A DNA stretch of 32,232 bases. It comes from Candidatus Curtissbacteria bacterium (lineage in GTDB: Bacteria; Patescibacteriota; Microgenomatia; Curtissbacterales; GWA2-41-24). Every line of letters starts with the position of its first letter. Positions within the stretch are counted from its first letter, which is position 1. Location of the stretch: assembly GCA_024654445.1 (NCBI GenBank), contig JANLHP010000012.1, positions 1-32,232 on the forward strand. The letters are read 5' to 3'. Positions 10,585 through 18,643 of this stretch are shown here, piece after piece. Position numbers and translations under genes: made by a program. The notes below the pieces were generated by a model. That model was not told where the DNA came from. It saw nothing but the letters and a program-made list of their open reading frames with translations, and searched no databases.

Positions 10585-11303
10585 AATTGTTGTGCTAAGA
10601 TTTTTATAAAGTTGCGGCTTTTTTCTCTTTCTTGTGTCCCGCCGCTATAATGGCGTTTGATATGGGCATGAGCATACCAAGTAGTTTTGTTTACAATTAC
10701 TCTGCCGTCTGCATGCCTGCACTTTAAGGCAATTTCAAGCGCTTCGCTTCCTAATTTCCCAAAGTTTTGGTCATCTAGAAGACCTAATTTGTAGAAAAAG
10801 TCCTTGGTTATAAAATAACAACTGCCTTGAAATACCTCCGTATCGTCCAGTAGTTTCTTTTTGAGGTTGGGGTCACGGTTTTTATCGTTATCTTTATGTC
10901 CTTTATAACTTCTTCCTACGAACATGTAATCTATATCCGGTTTATCCGTATCTACTAGTTCCCATTTGTAGGGATCAAATCGTTTGCGTCTTGGTGTCTG
11001 TACCCAATTCTCTTGGTGTACTGCCTTAAGTTTTTCGTCAACCCCTTCTGCTACCATGCAATGGGCATCAAGCTTCATAATATATTTACCAGAAGCTACT
11101 GCAACGGCTTGGTTGATAGCAGTTCTCATACCTCTGGGTTTTCGATTGTGAATATATCTGACACCTTCAACAGGTTCTTCTCCATCGCCGTCGAGAACAA
11201 CTATAATTTCAAAAGGCTCCTTAAATTTAGCCTTAATATCTAATATGGTCTGTTTTAAAAATTCTTCTTTTCTCGAAGGAATAATTACGCTTATATCTTC
11301 CAT
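10581..11303 (-). CDS. Family 2-like glycosyltransferase with DxH motif
   Basis: 240 residues. ISVIIPSRKEEFLKQTI is the GT-A/family 2 start, IIVVLDGDGEEP the first acidic loop, NRKPRGMRTAINQAV the conserved basic helix, and MKLDAHCMV (about 85-93) the DxH metal motif. FQGSCYFIT, LGSEALEIALKCR and TTWYAHAHIK complete the acceptor side. It is related to 1073-2170 and 11291-12073 but lacks the zinc ribbon of the first. D-x-H with a later Y-A-H is the arrangement known from polypeptide GalNAc-transferases; whether that reflects a protein acceptor is only a suggestion. It overlaps both neighbours. Confidence 0.88.
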   Translation of the reverse strand: MEDISVIIPSRKEEFLKQTILDIKAKFKEPFEIIVVLDGDGEEPVEGVRYIHNRKPRGMRTAINQAVAVASGKYIMKLDAHCMVAEGVDEKLKAVHQENWVQTPRRKRFDPYKWELVDTDKPDIDYMFVGRSYKGHKDNDKNRDPNLKKKLLDDTEVFQGSCYFITKDFFYKLGLLDDQNFGKLGSEALEIALKCRHADGRVIVNKTTWYAHAHIKRHYSGGTQEREKSRNFIKILAQQL

Positions 11304-12073
11304 TGTTTTCTAATCTCCTCATAATACGGCCTCCAGAGGTCATGCGCGTATTTCAAGTTTGGGTAAAAATCGGTATTTCCATACCTGTGGGTTCGTTGGA
11401 AGCTGACATGTTTGTGGGCAAACCAGGTTTTTTTGTTGACCATAAGTTTTCCGCCCGCTTTCCAGGTTTTGAATACCATCTCGTGTGAATCCTGGTACAT
11501 AGGTCCGTAACCTTCGGTTTGGAGTTCACCTATTACTCTGTCCCACCAGCTTCTTTTCATAACCCAGACGCTTCCCTGCATAGCCATGGTTTCGTCAATT
11601 TCGATATTTTTTCTTTCCTCCTGTCTTTCCTTCCATGGGATGCCTGTAAATTTTTTGGTATATTTGGCGGTTTGTATGGACAGCTTTTCGTAATCAACAT
11701 AAGGCAAGTCCATAACCTGCCATTTAACGGGGTCGAGAAAATAGCGTCTTGCCGTTAAAATCCAGTTATCCTGACAAGCGTCGGTCATGGCTTTGTCAAA
11801 ACCTTTAGCAAACATACAGTGCTCGTCTGAACGCATGATAAACTCTCCTCTTGAGACTGATACACCGGCGTTGATTGCATCCCTCATACCTCTGTTTTTG
11901 CCTAAATGGATATACCTTACCCTGGGGTCGTTTGTGATCTCAAATGTCGGCCAATACCCGTCGAATACTGCTATGATTTCGAGTTCATTTCCTAATGCAG
12001 AATTCACCAAAAGGGAATCAACGGTTTTTTTAAGTGAAGGATCTTTATAAGATGGGATTATGACAGAAAGCAT
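11291..12073 (-). CDS. Family 2-like glycosyltransferase with DxH motif, first gene of the operon
   Basis: 260 residues. LSVIIPSYKDPSLKKTVDSLL is the family 2 nucleotide-binding start; NRGMRDAINAGVSVSRGEFIM is the conserved central helix; RSDEHCMFAKGFD carries the D-x-H motif; MAMQGSVWVMKR, DSHEMVFKTWKAGG and TWFAHKH complete the catalytic core. It is the most upstream member of the minus-strand cluster and faces a 350-base palindrome-rich gap, where the operon promoter must lie. Its stop overlaps the next gene by 13 bases. The donor and acceptor sugars are unknown. Confidence 0.88.
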   Translation of the reverse strand: MLSVIIPSYKDPSLKKTVDSLLVNSALGNELEIIAVFDGYWPTFEITNDPRVRYIHLGKNRGMRDAINAGVSVSRGEFIMRSDEHCMFAKGFDKAMTDACQDNWILTARRYFLDPVKWQVMDLPYVDYEKLSIQTAKYTKKFTGIPWKERQEERKNIEIDETMAMQGSVWVMKRSWWDRVIGELQTEGYGPMYQDSHEMVFKTWKAGGKLMVNKKTWFAHKHVSFQRTHRYGNTDFYPNLKYAHDLWRPYYEEIRKQWKI

Positions 12074-12421: not shown

Positions 12422-13363
12422 ATGTTTTGGGGCATACGTCTTCCCAGTTTGTGGATGTTTAGTCTAATTGCCGTGGCCGGACTGCTTGGGGCTGGCTATT
12501 TAATCTTGAGCCGCGGGGCGGATACGTCAACTGGCGGGCAGCTTTCCCGGCGGGAGGCGACAATCGCCAGAGCCGGGGCGAGTAATATAGCATCTTTCTT
12601 CCAGGTGTTTGGTCCGTCAGTCGTAGTCCTTTCTCAACTCTCCAGTATGGAGAGTTTAGGAACGGAAACTCTCGAGGATATGGATACATTTGTAGACCAG
12701 TGGCGCGACATTGGGCTTGTTGGAGGGGTTGTGTTAACGGATAGAAATGGAGTAGTTCAGCTTAATTCTAACGCATTGAGGACTTCGGATATTGGTGCAT
12801 CCCTGGCCGATCGGGATTATTTTGTCTGGGCTAAAGGTAAGTCGAAAGAGGGAGAATATTTTATAGGCCAACCGGTAGTTAGTCGATTGGGTGCCACGAA
12901 GGATCAAATTATCGTTCCCGTGGCCGCCTCAGTATATCAAAATAAAGCTTTTGTGGGGGTCATATCCGCATCAGTGAAACTAAAGCCTTTAACCGAACGC
13001 TATTTGGGCTTGATTAAAATCTCAGAGCGCACAAGTGTTTATCTGTTGAGTGAGCAGGGGGAACCGCTTTATAGCAATTCAGGCAGCCAAACTCTGAGCG
13101 ATAATCTTAAAAAGGCGCTTTCTACAACCAAAGAAGGAGGTCAATTGCGGGCAGAAGGACAGTCGATTGCTTATTCTCCGGTATCGCTGGGCAGTCAAAA
13201 CTGGTTGTTGATTGTCTCTTCGCCCATTGGCGAAGTTTCGAGTATACCTTTCTATATTCGGCAAGTGGCGGTACTTCTTTCGGTATCTTTGACTACTCTG
13301 ACTTTGGGAGTGTACGTTAGCCGGCAAAGTCAGAAGAGAAAATCACGTCAAATAAGGCCGTGA
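12422..13363 (+). CDS. Membrane-anchored Cache-like extracellular sensor without an output domain
   Basis: 313 residues. A membrane helix lies at about 13-30 (SLIAVAGLLGAGYLIL). A periplasmic or external domain of ~240 residues follows, with the double-Cache pattern: a long helix (ATIARAGASNIASFFQVF...), GLVGGVVLTDRNGVVQLNSN, DIGASLADRDYFVWAKGKSKEGEYFIGQPV, IIVPVAAS, FVGVISASVKLKPLTERYLG and SVYLLSEQGEPLYSN. A second helix sits at about 279-300, then a 13-residue basic tail. Cache domains bind small ligands, usually driving a kinase or chemotaxis module; none is attached here. It ends inside a hairpin that probably acts as a terminator. Confidence 0.75.
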   Translation: MFWGIRLPSLWMFSLIAVAGLLGAGYLILSRGADTSTGGQLSRREATIARAGASNIASFFQVFGPSVVVLSQLSSMESLGTETLEDMDTFVDQWRDIGLVGGVVLTDRNGVVQLNSNALRTSDIGASLADRDYFVWAKGKSKEGEYFIGQPVVSRLGATKDQIIVPVAASVYQNKAFVGVISASVKLKPLTERYLGLIKISERTSVYLLSEQGEPLYSNSGSQTLSDNLKKALSTTKEGGQLRAEGQSIAYSPVSLGSQNWLLIVSSPIGEVSSIPFYIRQVAVLLSVSLTTLTLGVYVSRQSQKRKSRQIRP

Positions 13364-13385: not shown

Positions 13386-14021
13386 TCAAAATAGATTGTA
13401 GTAGTAGTCGTACCTTAGATTTTCGCGATTTTTCCAGTTACCGGGAAGGTCGGAGTCGCCTTTGGCGTAACGAAAATTATTATTACTTGAATCTTCGCGC
13501 ATGATGAGCCAAGCTCCGGTGTAGTTAATAAAGCCATAATAGGTAACAAGGCCTTCTTCCATTATCTCGGAAATTTTATAGCCGTCGGTGGGTGAGGCAC
13601 TGGCCAGTCCAGACTGGTTGCCGTCTGTTACACGTGGAGGGTTTATCATAGATTGCCCAGCTGTGCCAAAAATGAGAGACTCGACTCTTCTGCCTAGTAG
13701 CGAGAAGAGGAAAAAAGAGATTCCTGTTGCTCCAATTAGTTTAATAAAGGCCCGCTTGTCGATATCGGAGATGTAGGCAATTTCCTTATTTGGGTTAGGA
13801 GTTTCACTTTTGTCATGGCTCAATTTTGTCGGGGGTAGCTGGACAGCAATGTTCGGCTGTACCAGGACAGTTCGCGGGAATAGTTTAAATACTAAGAAAA
13901 TGAGGGTGGGGTAAATGACAATGGCGACAGCCAGTTGGGAGTAAGTTGTGGCGGTTACAAAGCCGAAGATTATAAGTAAGCCGGCTATTACAAGCAGGAG
14001 GTATGTTAGGGTTTTAGTCAT
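13386..14021 (-). CDS. Membrane protein of unknown function
   Basis: 211 residues. Two N-terminal membrane helices (about 5-24 and 28-47) are followed by a Pro/Asn-rich linker and a third hydrophobic segment within FIKLIGATGISFFLFSLLGRR (about 92-112). The remaining ~100 residues are probably outside and include EGLVTYYGFINYTGAWLIMR, NNNFRYAKGDSDLPGNW and YDYYYNLF. The C-terminal part looks like a small beta domain, and R-R-V-E-S follows the third helix. No known family is recognised. Its start overlaps the end of the transposase-SH3 fusion gene by 8 bases, so the two are one transcription and translation unit, and the products may meet at the membrane. Confidence 0.75.
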   Translation of the reverse strand: MTKTLTYLLLVIAGLLIIFGFVTATTYSQLAVAIVIYPTLIFLVFKLFPRTVLVQPNIAVQLPPTKLSHDKSETPNPNKEIAYISDIDKRAFIKLIGATGISFFLFSLLGRRVESLIFGTAGQSMINPPRVTDGNQSGLASASPTDGYKISEIMEEGLVTYYGFINYTGAWLIMREDSSNNNFRYAKGDSDLPGNWKNRENLRYDYYYNLF

Positions 14022-15111
14022 TATTTATTGTCTTCTCTTTTTCGATATATTGAGAAAATATGAAGCCATATGTGCCTTCTGGCAGGGCCACCTGATAAAA
14101 ACCAGAATCTTCGGAAATGAACTCAAATTTTTCTCCTGCTTTAGCCTCACCTATCTTGTTAGATTTAATAGATGGATTTTCCCTGATGTCGACTGGATCT
14201 TTTGTGTTTGTGATTATAAGTATTGTTTTAGGTTCAGGAATGGTTGTTGGAGGTGGAGTTGTGATGGGTGAGGGAGAGTAGGGTGAGGTAGATGCTATGA
14301 CTGAAGTTGTGTGTTCTCCTAGGGTGGCTGAGGCTGCTGAATAATTGTGTACGTTTCTTATCCCAATGCCGAGCAGAAGGACAAAGATAGCGCTAGTTAC
14401 CAATAATTCAGGGATTCTGGACCAGGGCTGTAGTTCTACCTTTTTAAGGTCTCTCCTTTCAAGGTGCTTATCGGCCTTTTCGATTGTGATCTCGTCGAGA
14501 AGCTCTAATTCATGCTTATCGGGGGTATATTTTTCTACAAAGTCTTTGTAATTGCCACTGATATTTTTAAGGGAAAGAACAACATTTGTTTTCACCCAAG
14601 AAGTGTGTTTTTGGCCTGAAAATTCAGGATAAGATGAGTAGCCGCCTTCCTTATGAAGGTACCGGGTTAAAAGCAAAAGACTTTGTTCGTCCTTTATGAC
14701 AACCGACTTATAGGGGCCATCGAAAAGAGACCCGGTGTGATTATATTTTTTATTGAAATACATCGAGTATCTTGTGCAAAGCGATCTGATTAGTGCTTGC
14801 AAGGATTTTTGGGTTCTTTGATGAATAAGTAGGTGAAAATGATCCGGGCTTAGGCTGTAGGCGAGGAGTTCCACTTGGTTGAAGTAGTTTTTTGGCTGGT
14901 GAGGCACGCCCGTGAAGGTGCGTCCGTTGACAATGAATTCTTTTTTAGTGCTCTCGGGAGCTTTGGGCGCAGTAAGATAGTCTTCCAGATAGCCTAGAAA
15001 GACCTGATAGTCAACATCGTCTGCGAAAATGTTCCTGTTTTCAATGCCCCTGTTGTAGACATGGCAATATGTTCCACCTTCAGCTACCCTCTGAAGGTTT
15101 TTGGCAGGCAT
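14014..15111 (-). CDS. IS200/REP-type (Y1) transposase domain fused to a membrane anchor and SH3-like domain
   Basis: 365 residues. The first ~195 are a REP-associated tyrosine transposase (RAYT)-like domain: GGTYCHVYNRGIENRNIF, AYSLSPDHFHLLIH with the two metal-binding histidines H91 and H93, and LCTRYSMYFNKKYNHTGSLF with the candidate catalytic tyrosine (Y115 or Y118) before GSLFDGPYKSVVI. The key residues appear intact. Instead of ending there, the protein continues with a charged linker, a membrane helix (about 234-250), a Pro/Ser/Thr-rich stretch (270-295) and an SH3b-like domain (about 297-356: DPVDIRENPSIKSNKIGEAK, FYQVALPEGTYGFIFSQYIE). SH3b domains usually bind cell wall or ligands outside the cell. 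A membrane-tethered transposase domain is very unusual. It is the first gene of a unit with the membrane protein at 13386-14021. Confidence 0.85.
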   Translation of the reverse strand: MPAKNLQRVAEGGTYCHVYNRGIENRNIFADDVDYQVFLGYLEDYLTAPKAPESTKKEFIVNGRTFTGVPHQPKNYFNQVELLAYSLSPDHFHLLIHQRTQKSLQALIRSLCTRYSMYFNKKYNHTGSLFDGPYKSVVIKDEQSLLLLTRYLHKEGGYSSYPEFSGQKHTSWVKTNVVLSLKNISGNYKDFVEKYTPDKHELELLDEITIEKADKHLERRDLKKVELQPWSRIPELLVTSAIFVLLLGIGIRNVHNYSAASATLGEHTTSVIASTSPYSPSPITTPPPTTIPEPKTILIITNTKDPVDIRENPSIKSNKIGEAKAGEKFEFISEDSGFYQVALPEGTYGFIFSQYIEKEKTINND

Positions 15112-15225
15112 AATTTAATGTTAACTTGAAAGCAGATACTCTGCAAGTAGGATGTTGAAAATCGAATCATGTCAACAAAATAAGCGTTTATCCAGATCTT
15201 TATTTGTGGTAATCTATCTAATGTT

Positions 15226-16269: not shown

Positions 16270-16294
16270 CAACTTCTAATCCCGCTTCGCGGAA

Positions 16295-16416
16295 TGGTAC
16301 GATATCAGCCTCGTTCCGCTCGCTGATAGTTTTGAAAATCGTAGATTTTCAAAGATAATGAATGGGGATATTCCAATCGTTTGATTGAGCAAGTTATTCA
16401 GGTTGGAAACCACTAG
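16295..16416 (+). pseudogene. Remnant 3' end of a second gap gene, split by a palindromic insert
   Basis: Bases 16354-16416 read D-N-E-W-G-Y-S-N-R-L-I-E-Q-V-I-Q-V-G-N-H-stop, matching the last 20 residues of the intact gap gene at 17 positions, with 49 of 63 bases identical. The preceding codons W-Y-D (TGGTACGAT) sit at 16295-16303, cut off by a 50-base insert (16304-16353). GAT is present on both sides of the insert, as in a short target duplication. Most differences are at third positions, so this fragment evolved as a real gap gene before it was lost. It has no start and cannot be expressed as an enzyme. Confidence 0.85.
16304..16353. repeat. 50-base palindromic insert inside the gap remnant
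   Basis: It contains ATCAGC...GCTGAT (an imperfect palindrome, about 16303-16326) followed by TTTGAAAATC-GTA-GATTTTCAAA (10-base perfect arms, about 16331-16353). It separates TGGTACGAT from GATAATGAATGG, which together would read as the gap C-terminal motif W-Y-D-N-E-W, so its ends are defined to within a few bases. Confidence 0.7.
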
Positions 16417-16487
16417 ATAATTTTCTCCAGGTTGCTTTTTTCGAATTCGTAAGTTTAGAATTTATTTATCAATCTGCCCCTATTTTT

Positions 16488-17434: not shown

Positions 17435-18643
17435 CTAAAGGTTTGACGGTTCAGCTGTGTCTTTTAGATTCATTATAATCGTAACCCCGTTTCTATTTTT
17501 GAAAATAAAAGGATAACCACGGTCGTTGCCTTTGAATTTTAAATCGACGTAGGCTTTTTTCATATTTTCGAAAGCGGCAGTGTCTGTTTGGTATTCGTCG
17601 TCTGACTCTCGATGAAATAGTTCGTGTCTAAACTGGAAGCTAAGCGGTCGGTCTCTAAACCTATATTCTTGGCCGTTAAACTCAAAAGGGTTGTCGCTGA
17701 ACCAAGGGGGTGGAGTGAAAGATTGGTATGGATGAGGTTCCATGACACCTCCGACTGCAAGGAAAAGATAAATTTTGTCGGCGTATTCGGGATGTTCCGC
17801 AAAAAGTTTTTCGGCTCTTTTTTCCCGGGGAGTAGCTAGGCGGCCTTCAACCTTATAGTTAGATAGCATGGCAGGGGTATACTTTCCGCCCACATTGCTG
17901 AATTCTTTTTCTTTTAGTAATTCCTCTCGAGATCTGAGTGGTAGCTTGCTTAATATATCTTGTACGAATTCTAGTGATTTTCCATATTCCCGCATGTTTT
18001 CCAGAGCGAGTTCCCTCTTAGCTTGATCTTGGGGATTGCCGGTGTACTCAAGCCGAGATTCTTCAATTTTTTCAATGAAGTCGGAGTGTAACTCCCTCAG
18101 ATACTCTCGGTCTTCGCCTGGTAAATCATTTGTGGCTAACCAAATGTCTCGGGCTTCCTGGGGTAATTTTTGGATTGCGTTTGCGCTAACGGAGTCGGAG
18201 TCTACCAAAACGATAACAACTTCCCCTATCTTTCCTTCTTTTGCTTCTTGAAATAATCGGAATTGATCCAACGCGTCGTCTCTTAAGTAGAGCTCCGTGC
18301 CGGGTGTGTCGATAATTCTAATGTGAGCTTCTTCAAGTTGTTCTGGTGTCAATACATCCTGGGGGATTTCGAGTTGAGGAGTTCTTTGATTTTCTGTCAG
18401 GTTTCCGGCCGGCGCCAAATTATTGTCCTGTTTGATCAGCTGACTTTTGGATTTGGCTTCTGCCGGACTTGCGTATGATTGGGGGTCTAATTGGAAATGG
18501 GTTTTTGCAGGAGCTTCGGCTCTGTTTTCCGTTCCAATTAAGGCTTTGCCGGCAAGACCAGCAATACCTATTCCAGCTCCACGAAGGAGTGATCTTCTGG
18601 AAATTTGTCTCGGTCTGGGTTGTTCGGATTCTGGCTCTGCCAT
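17435..18643 (-). CDS. Tat-exported putative HExxH metallopeptidase
   Basis: 402 residues. ISRRSLLRGAGIGIAGLAGK (about 14-33) is a twin-arginine signal: S-R-R-x-L-L followed by a Gly/Ala-rich hydrophobic stretch, so the protein is probably exported folded. A polar linker follows (40-95). The body has a Rossmann-like strand EVVIVLVDSDS, a long helical middle (about 160-250) and, near the C-terminus, FQFRHELFHRESDDEYQTDTAAFENM. HELFH (340-344) fits the HExxH zinc-protease signature, with D or E 8-15 residues on as possible third ligands. This is inference: no protease family is recognised by other motifs. It stands alone, convergent with the duplicated-domain gene. Confidence 0.7.
   Translation of the reverse strand: MAEPESEQPRPRQISRRSLLRGAGIGIAGLAGKALIGTENRAEAPAKTHFQLDPQSYASPAEAKSKSQLIKQDNNLAPAGNLTENQRTPQLEIPQDVLTPEQLEEAHIRIIDTPGTELYLRDDALDQFRLFQEAKEGKIGEVVIVLVDSDSVSANAIQKLPQEARDIWLATNDLPGEDREYLRELHSDFIEKIEESRLEYTGNPQDQAKRELALENMREYGKSLEFVQDILSKLPLRSREELLKEKEFSNVGGKYTPAMLSNYKVEGRLATPREKRAEKLFAEHPEYADKIYLFLAVGGVMEPHPYQSFTPPPWFSDNPFEFNGQEYRFRDRPLSFQFRHELFHRESDDEYQTDTAAFENMKKAYVDLKFKGNDRGYPFIFKNRNGVTIIMNLKDTAEPSNL

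Follow-up and report, generated by a model that had tools for sequence, protein, structure and literature searches.

A REPtron, that is, a RAYT/TnpA-REP gene bracketed by REP palindromes (PMC6006769), has probably been fused to a gene encoding a transmembrane helix and an SH3b domain in a lineage of tiny, uncultured bacteria, and domesticated to serve a membrane-anchored, probably autoregulatory protein as the half that binds DNA. The product of this fusion, here called gene A, precedes a gene for a partner membrane protein, gene B, in an operon near the middle of the window (the whole stretch of 32,232 nucleotides that was analysed, from Candidatus Curtissbacteria), and carries two REP-like palindromes, one directly upstream of its start codon and the other within its open reading frame, where the Y1 part ends, rather than on the two flanks of the gene (Table 1).

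Architecture and distribution of gene A and its partner

The open reading frame of gene A is intact, and encodes a Y1-transposase-like domain, a membrane helix, a Pro/Ser/Thr-rich linker and an SH3b domain, in an order that was proposed in the first-pass annotation and is confirmed by Pfam, hydropathy, a structure model and homologues. The matches to Y1_Tnp (E 6.5e-9, residues 78-154) and SH3_3 (E 9.3e-11, residues 307-357) are above the curated cut-offs of Pfam, and the only hydrophobic segment (about residues 230-256, Kyte-Doolittle 2.24) corresponds to a helix at residues 229-260 of the predicted structure, a model of moderate confidence (mean pLDDT 66; Y1 core mostly 69-91; SH3b part 72-78). 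In a fold search the model matches the RAYT-REP hairpin structure 4er8 and the ISDra2 and IS608 transposases, and the SH3 part matches bacterial SH3 domains by both profile and fold. The Y1_Tnp match and the match to 4er8 support a RAYT affinity, the annotation having assigned the domain to the REP-associated/IS200 type; a match to the NCBIfam family REP_Tyr_transpos has an E-value of 4e-5, yet scores 23.5 bits against a cut-off of 80. Gene A is the sole Y1_Tnp match of its source genome, on which ground it was rejected as a mobile IS200 copy; identification as an IS200/IS605 transposase was also set aside, on account of the single genomic copy, the lack of Q at the fourth position after the catalytic tyrosine (Tyr+4) and the length of 365 residues with a transmembrane helix and SH3b. 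A single chain thus joins a DNA-binding type of domain, one transmembrane helix and SH3b, for which a weak positive-inside signal predicts an orientation with Y1 in the cytoplasm and SH3b, a domain of wall-binding-like type, outside.

Table 1. Features of the gene A-gene B locus and its neighbours (window coordinates)
Feature	Position	Strand	Evidence
Gene A: Y1-transposase-like domain, TM helix, linker and SH3b, 365 aa	14014..15111	-	ORF call, Pfam, order kept in homologues
Y1 (HUH, RAYT-like) domain, residues 1-200	14512..15111	-	Pfam Y1_Tnp, fold match, catalytic residues
HxH codons of gene A	14833-14841	-	H91-F-H93
Tyr151 codon of gene A	14659-14661	-	Tyr+4 = Glu155
Transmembrane helix of gene A, residues 230-256	14344..14424	-	Hydropathy and structure model
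Pro/Ser/Thr-rich linker of gene A, residues 257-303	14203..14343	-	Sequence; low pLDDT in model
SH3b domain of gene A, residues 304-358	14038..14202	-	Pfam SH3_3; PDB sequence and fold matches 4krt, 2krs, 2kt8
Gene B: partner membrane protein, 211 aa	13386..14021	-	ORF call, homologue comparison
Conserved element upstream of gene A, with 3 bases between it and the start codon	15115..15154	-	Comparison, pattern and model searches
REP-like palindrome CTTGCAGAGTATCTGCTTTCAAG within the upstream element	15125-15147	-	Sequence comparison
Internal REP-like palindrome of gene A, where Y1 and TM helix adjoin, codons 217-224 (LERRDLKK)	14441..14463	.	Synonymous shuffles
dCache membrane protein, convergent to gene B	12422..13363	+	Pfam; recurrent neighbour, 8/18 Y1 forms
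GT2 glycosyltransferase	11291..12073	-	Pfam; recurrent neighbour, 10/18 Y1 forms and 3/3 MerR forms

Gene B overlaps gene A by eight bases (14014-14021), as had been noted, and its product has two N-terminal transmembrane helices, a loop, a (K/R)RxFLK motif, a third transmembrane helix and a small C-terminal beta domain. No significant match was found in Pfam, PHROG, NCBIfam or PDB, or by structure search. In the gene B family (loci L040-L096), which is mostly found behind a TM-SH3b protein, the internal (K/R)RxFLK motif precedes the third transmembrane helix; Tat export of B as a requirement, suggested by this motif, was not upheld, TatC being present in only 11 of the 18 genomes tested. The recurrent GT2 and dCache neighbours are in keeping with an envelope locus. 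Rfam identified no RNA family in the part of the window from 11 to 17 kb.

Gene B was detected in 53 of 374 genomes of the Microgenomates class and, outside this class, in only four genomes of a sample across the phylum. Among the loci of the 374 genomes with a readable gene upstream of B, Y1-TM(-SH3b) forms were found at 18, always with B directly after them, and tandem MerR helix-turn-helix (HTH)-TM-SH3b forms at three; the remainder have mostly TM-SH3b proteins without a DNA-binding domain, and some have only short membrane proteins. The prevalence of TM-SH3b proteins without a DNA-binding domain suggests that the TM-SH3b/B pair is a wider chassis, to which the Y1 domain looks like an addition. 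Full-length homologues of gene A (43-51% identity) occur in Levybacteria, Daviesbacteria, Woesebacteria and Gottesmanbacteria, and because the same order of domains with the same downstream gene is found in many independent genomes, it is not an artefact of assembly or of a frameshift joining two genes, and the partnership with B, also claimed from the window alone, is conserved. The composite architecture does not extend to every relative: free RAYT-like genes are homologues that lack the C-terminal part, though as a clade apart from the fused forms, and SH3b is missing from two of the fused forms themselves (L070 and L075).

Single origin, catalytic loss and replacement of the Y1 domain

A tree of Y1 domains places the 18 fused copies on one side of a branch that separates them from 39 free RAYT-like proteins with support of 99/99, and the split persists with the catalytic columns removed; the free proteins were chosen by similarity to the query, and thus represent near relatives only. 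As judged from this tree, the fusion arose once. TnpA-Y1 enzymes have a HuH motif, a catalytic tyrosine and a third metal ligand at Tyr+4 (Q131 in IS608, N119 in E. coli TnpA-REP), which is the Asn of the motif Y---NP in TnpA-REP and the Gln of the motif Y---Q in TnpA-IS200 (PMC6006769). The complete set of HxH, Tyr and Asn/Gln at Tyr+4 is present in all 39 free proteins versus none of the 18 fused ones, a comparison by which the full catalytic set has been lost in the fused clade. HxH or Tyr or both have been lost from 12 of the 18 fused copies, with at least six changes required on the tree for each of the two motifs. The other six retain both HxH and Tyr, which counts against a reading of the domain as domesticated; the window copy is one of these, with H91-F-H93 and Tyr151 intact just as the first-pass annotation reported, but with Glu at Tyr+4, the position of the third ligand, which it had missed. 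Even so, conservation within the fused proteins is highest in the Y1 core (mean pairwise identity 62%, versus 52% for SH3b and 27% for the linker), which is positively charged in all of them.

The Y1 forms and the MerR forms share one clade of the gene B tree (support 99/95), within which MerR forms are nested at two places, L048 as the sister of L042 (100/96), and L049 and L051 elsewhere. The gene A product of L048 is 48% identical to that of L033 (the same protein as L042) over the transmembrane helix, linker and SH3b, with no similarity before, and the alignment begins right behind the palindrome at the junction. By these comparisons, a tandem MerR HTH has taken the place of Y1 on two occasions, the TM-SH3b-B chassis remaining the same. 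Such a swap points to a role in DNA binding, since a nuclease could hardly be exchanged in this way, and the Y1 domain has most likely been kept as a DNA-binding module rather than as a DNA-cutting enzyme. The three MerR forms have a conserved region of their own upstream of gene A (with TTTACCTAAGCAGAGGATAACCAA or nearly so), unlike the element of the Y1 forms.

REP-like palindromes upstream of and within gene A

In most Y1 forms, the start codon is directly preceded by a shared 40-bp element that includes a REP-like palindrome of the form CTTGnAAGG-N5-CCTTnCAAG, such as CTTGCAAAGTCTCTTCTTTCAAG. At least 12 of the 16 specified positions of the palindrome are matched in 14 of the 18 Y1 forms, a 24-base pattern taken from the element is expected to have zero matches by chance, and a sequence model of the element matches its own gene in nearly all of the Y1-form genomes (E 4e-10 to 4e-4), the only match in genome G105 being the copy inside gene A. 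The element has been kept between genera whose proteins are about 50% identical; the model finds no site at the MerR-form genes, upstream of which the palindrome is absent. Covariation of the paired positions, which hardly vary, was not above that of shuffles, so the upstream palindrome is supported by conservation and not by compensatory change. The element of the window can also be taken for a promoter (TTGCAG, 17 nt, TAACAT), albeit a weak one, whose transcript would be leaderless, the start codon being located at the transcript start expected from these hexamers; the hexamers are weak, and a general sigma-70 scan did not list this promoter. Because the upstream palindrome overlaps the putative promoter, its occupation by a protein would block transcription of both A and B, and negative autoregulation is the simplest reading.

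An internal palindrome is present near codons 203-241, at the junction of Y1 and the transmembrane helix, in about 10 of the 18 Y1 forms. Shuffles of synonymous codons reached the observed match in four of 300 trials for the window gene, and in zero to four of 300 for each of the other carriers. The internal palindromes of L043 and L053 are perfect even though the encoded residues differ (LERRSLSS and LERSVLSS), which points to selection on the DNA. Free relatives have like palindromes on both sides of the gene, one in front of the start codon and one at the stop codon or closely behind it, as in the REPtron layout (PMC6006769), and the two are often identical in sequence (L009, L014, L015, L017, L025, L027), although in shuffle tests at single free genes the palindrome of each side reached significance at no more than 12 of the 39. 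Since the free relatives carry a REP just after the stop codon, the internal copy looks like a former downstream REP, which would now be translated as the fusion joint.

Free RAYT-like genes (L005-L031, L111-L126) are common: 192 of the 374 genomes match the profile of the fused family at E 1e-25, the Y1 part being what matches in nearly all of them, and many of the free genes carry the same palindrome on both sides, constituting Microgenomates REPtrons that are seemingly undescribed. Tat genes (L163-L167, L169-L173) recur beside the gene of a giant protein made of Ser-Pro-Ser repeats and beside a small conserved gene (about 65 amino acids), and the gap before the latter contains a REP-like palindrome in genome G239 and, weakly, in G277 and G000. 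A regulon of tat operons was considered on this basis and not adopted, the palindrome being strong in G239, weaker in G277 and G000, and absent from most others.

A proposed membrane-anchored DNA-binding module, its alternatives and known systems

In the sequence of events that is proposed, a REPtron would have been joined in frame to the pre-existing TM-SH3b gene of a TM-SH3b/B pair, and its Y1 domain would then have lost the complete catalytic set, whereas its fold, its positive charge and the palindromes on either side of its coding part would have been retained. In this membrane-anchored protein, the Y1 domain would most likely be the half that lies in the cytoplasm and binds DNA in a sequence-specific manner. 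It would bind the internal palindrome and the one that directly precedes its own gene, and this binding would repress or tune the A-B operon. On the outer face, SH3b and the partner B would report the state of the envelope, both being candidate envelope sensors. An extension of this proposal, about evenly poised between right and wrong, is that gene A represents a new Microgenomates family of membrane-spanning, envelope-linked DNA-binding regulators that captured a RAYT with its REP sites, turned the downstream REP into a fusion joint, lost catalysis, converted REP recognition into autoregulation, and later gave up the module in favour of a tandem MerR HTH, with the TM-SH3b-B chassis kept.

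ToxR/CadC-type one-component regulators consist of a cytoplasmic DNA-binding domain, one transmembrane helix and an extracytoplasmic domain, with a partner membrane protein in the operon. Gene A appears to have the same layout, but its DNA-binding half is a decayed transposase or, in the MerR forms, a tandem HTH, its outer half is SH3b, and its role in regulation is putative.

One alternative, which seems unlikely, is that Y1 has ceased to bind DNA and is only a scaffold for dimerisation or protein-protein contacts, the palindromes being relics or serving another factor. Both palindromes could be retained relics; the catalytic decay of the fused copies, the absence of covariation above shuffles, and the fact that TnpA-IS200 proteins work as dimers (PMC6006769) would suit such a scaffold, but its replacement by a DNA-binding fold, the retained positive charge, and the conservation of an upstream element across genera that is missing in the MerR forms argue for contact with DNA. 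Likewise unlikely is a chromosome tether, in which Y1 or MerR would bind dispersed REP-like palindromes and hold the nucleoid to the envelope through the transmembrane helix and SH3b, with no regulation. The joining of both modules to the same anchor is consistent with a tether, as are the dispersed palindromes of several fused-form genomes (10 in G135, eight in G104 and seven in G277, versus zero for a control pattern); however, the palindrome-rich genomes also carry free RAYT-like genes that may have spread them, several fused-form genomes have zero to three, and the genome of the window has only two at up to two mismatches, one of them inside gene A. An active HUH single-strand nuclease processing incoming or outgoing DNA at the membrane, which the first-pass annotation proposed, is very doubtful and was rejected as the leading reading: HxH and Tyr persist in the window copy and the five others, and Glu at Tyr+4 might still hold metal, but the complete set survives in no fused copy, HxH and Tyr have changed repeatedly, all of Y1 was exchanged for MerR HTH on the same chassis, and no DNA-uptake or secretion genes were recognised beside gene A.

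The Y1 part of gene A shares with TnpA-REP/RAYT proteins (class 2 of the TnpA-Y1 family, PMC6006769) the HUH fold, Y1 sequence relatedness, low copy number, and palindromes that bracket the Y1 coding part; it differs from them in its incomplete catalytic set, in the C-terminal membrane helix and SH3b, in the operon with gene B, and in having the second palindrome inside the open reading frame. TnpA-Y1 subclass 2.1 also has C-terminal additions to the Y1 core, but these are DNA-binding domains (DnaA-like or HTH), whereas gene A adds a transmembrane helix and SH3b, neither of which is mentioned in the text of that study (PMC6006769). Reuse of transposon-derived DNA recognition for another task is known from domesticated proteins such as SETMAR (PMC9062482) and the TldR RNA-guided transcription factors (PMC13418256), which belong to different enzyme families; here the module is membrane-anchored, and the joint of the fusion contains the palindrome that it likely recognises. 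A literature search yielded no description of a membrane-anchored, SH3b-fused RAYT, so the order of domains is apparently undescribed, as had been supposed, with novelty unproven because many subscription journals are outside the coverage of the search.

The family touches on two open questions, the function of RAYTs in the bacteria that carry them and the conversion of bacterial transposases into host genes, and it permits comparison of a free ancestor-like form, an eroded fused form, a likely fossil REP at the joint, and a later replacement by HTH. Its interest is high, since the passage from a mobile gene to a module of the host can be followed step by step in the sequences and is testable, the predicted DNA sites being 15125-15147 and 14441-14463, and it may represent a route of signalling from envelope to DNA in ultra-small bacteria, in which few regulators are known.

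Two other features of the window were observed. The gene at 17435-18643 (minus strand) encodes a protein with a Tat-like signal (RQISRRSLLRG) and an RHELFH motif, with no significant Pfam match, that is possibly secreted and metallopeptidase-like. On the 3' side of the GAPDH gene, positions 16290-16420 (plus strand) contain its last codons a second time (aatcgtttgattgagcaagttattcaggttgg...), in degenerate form and with inverted repeats in between, which constitutes a partial duplication of the 3' end of the gene.
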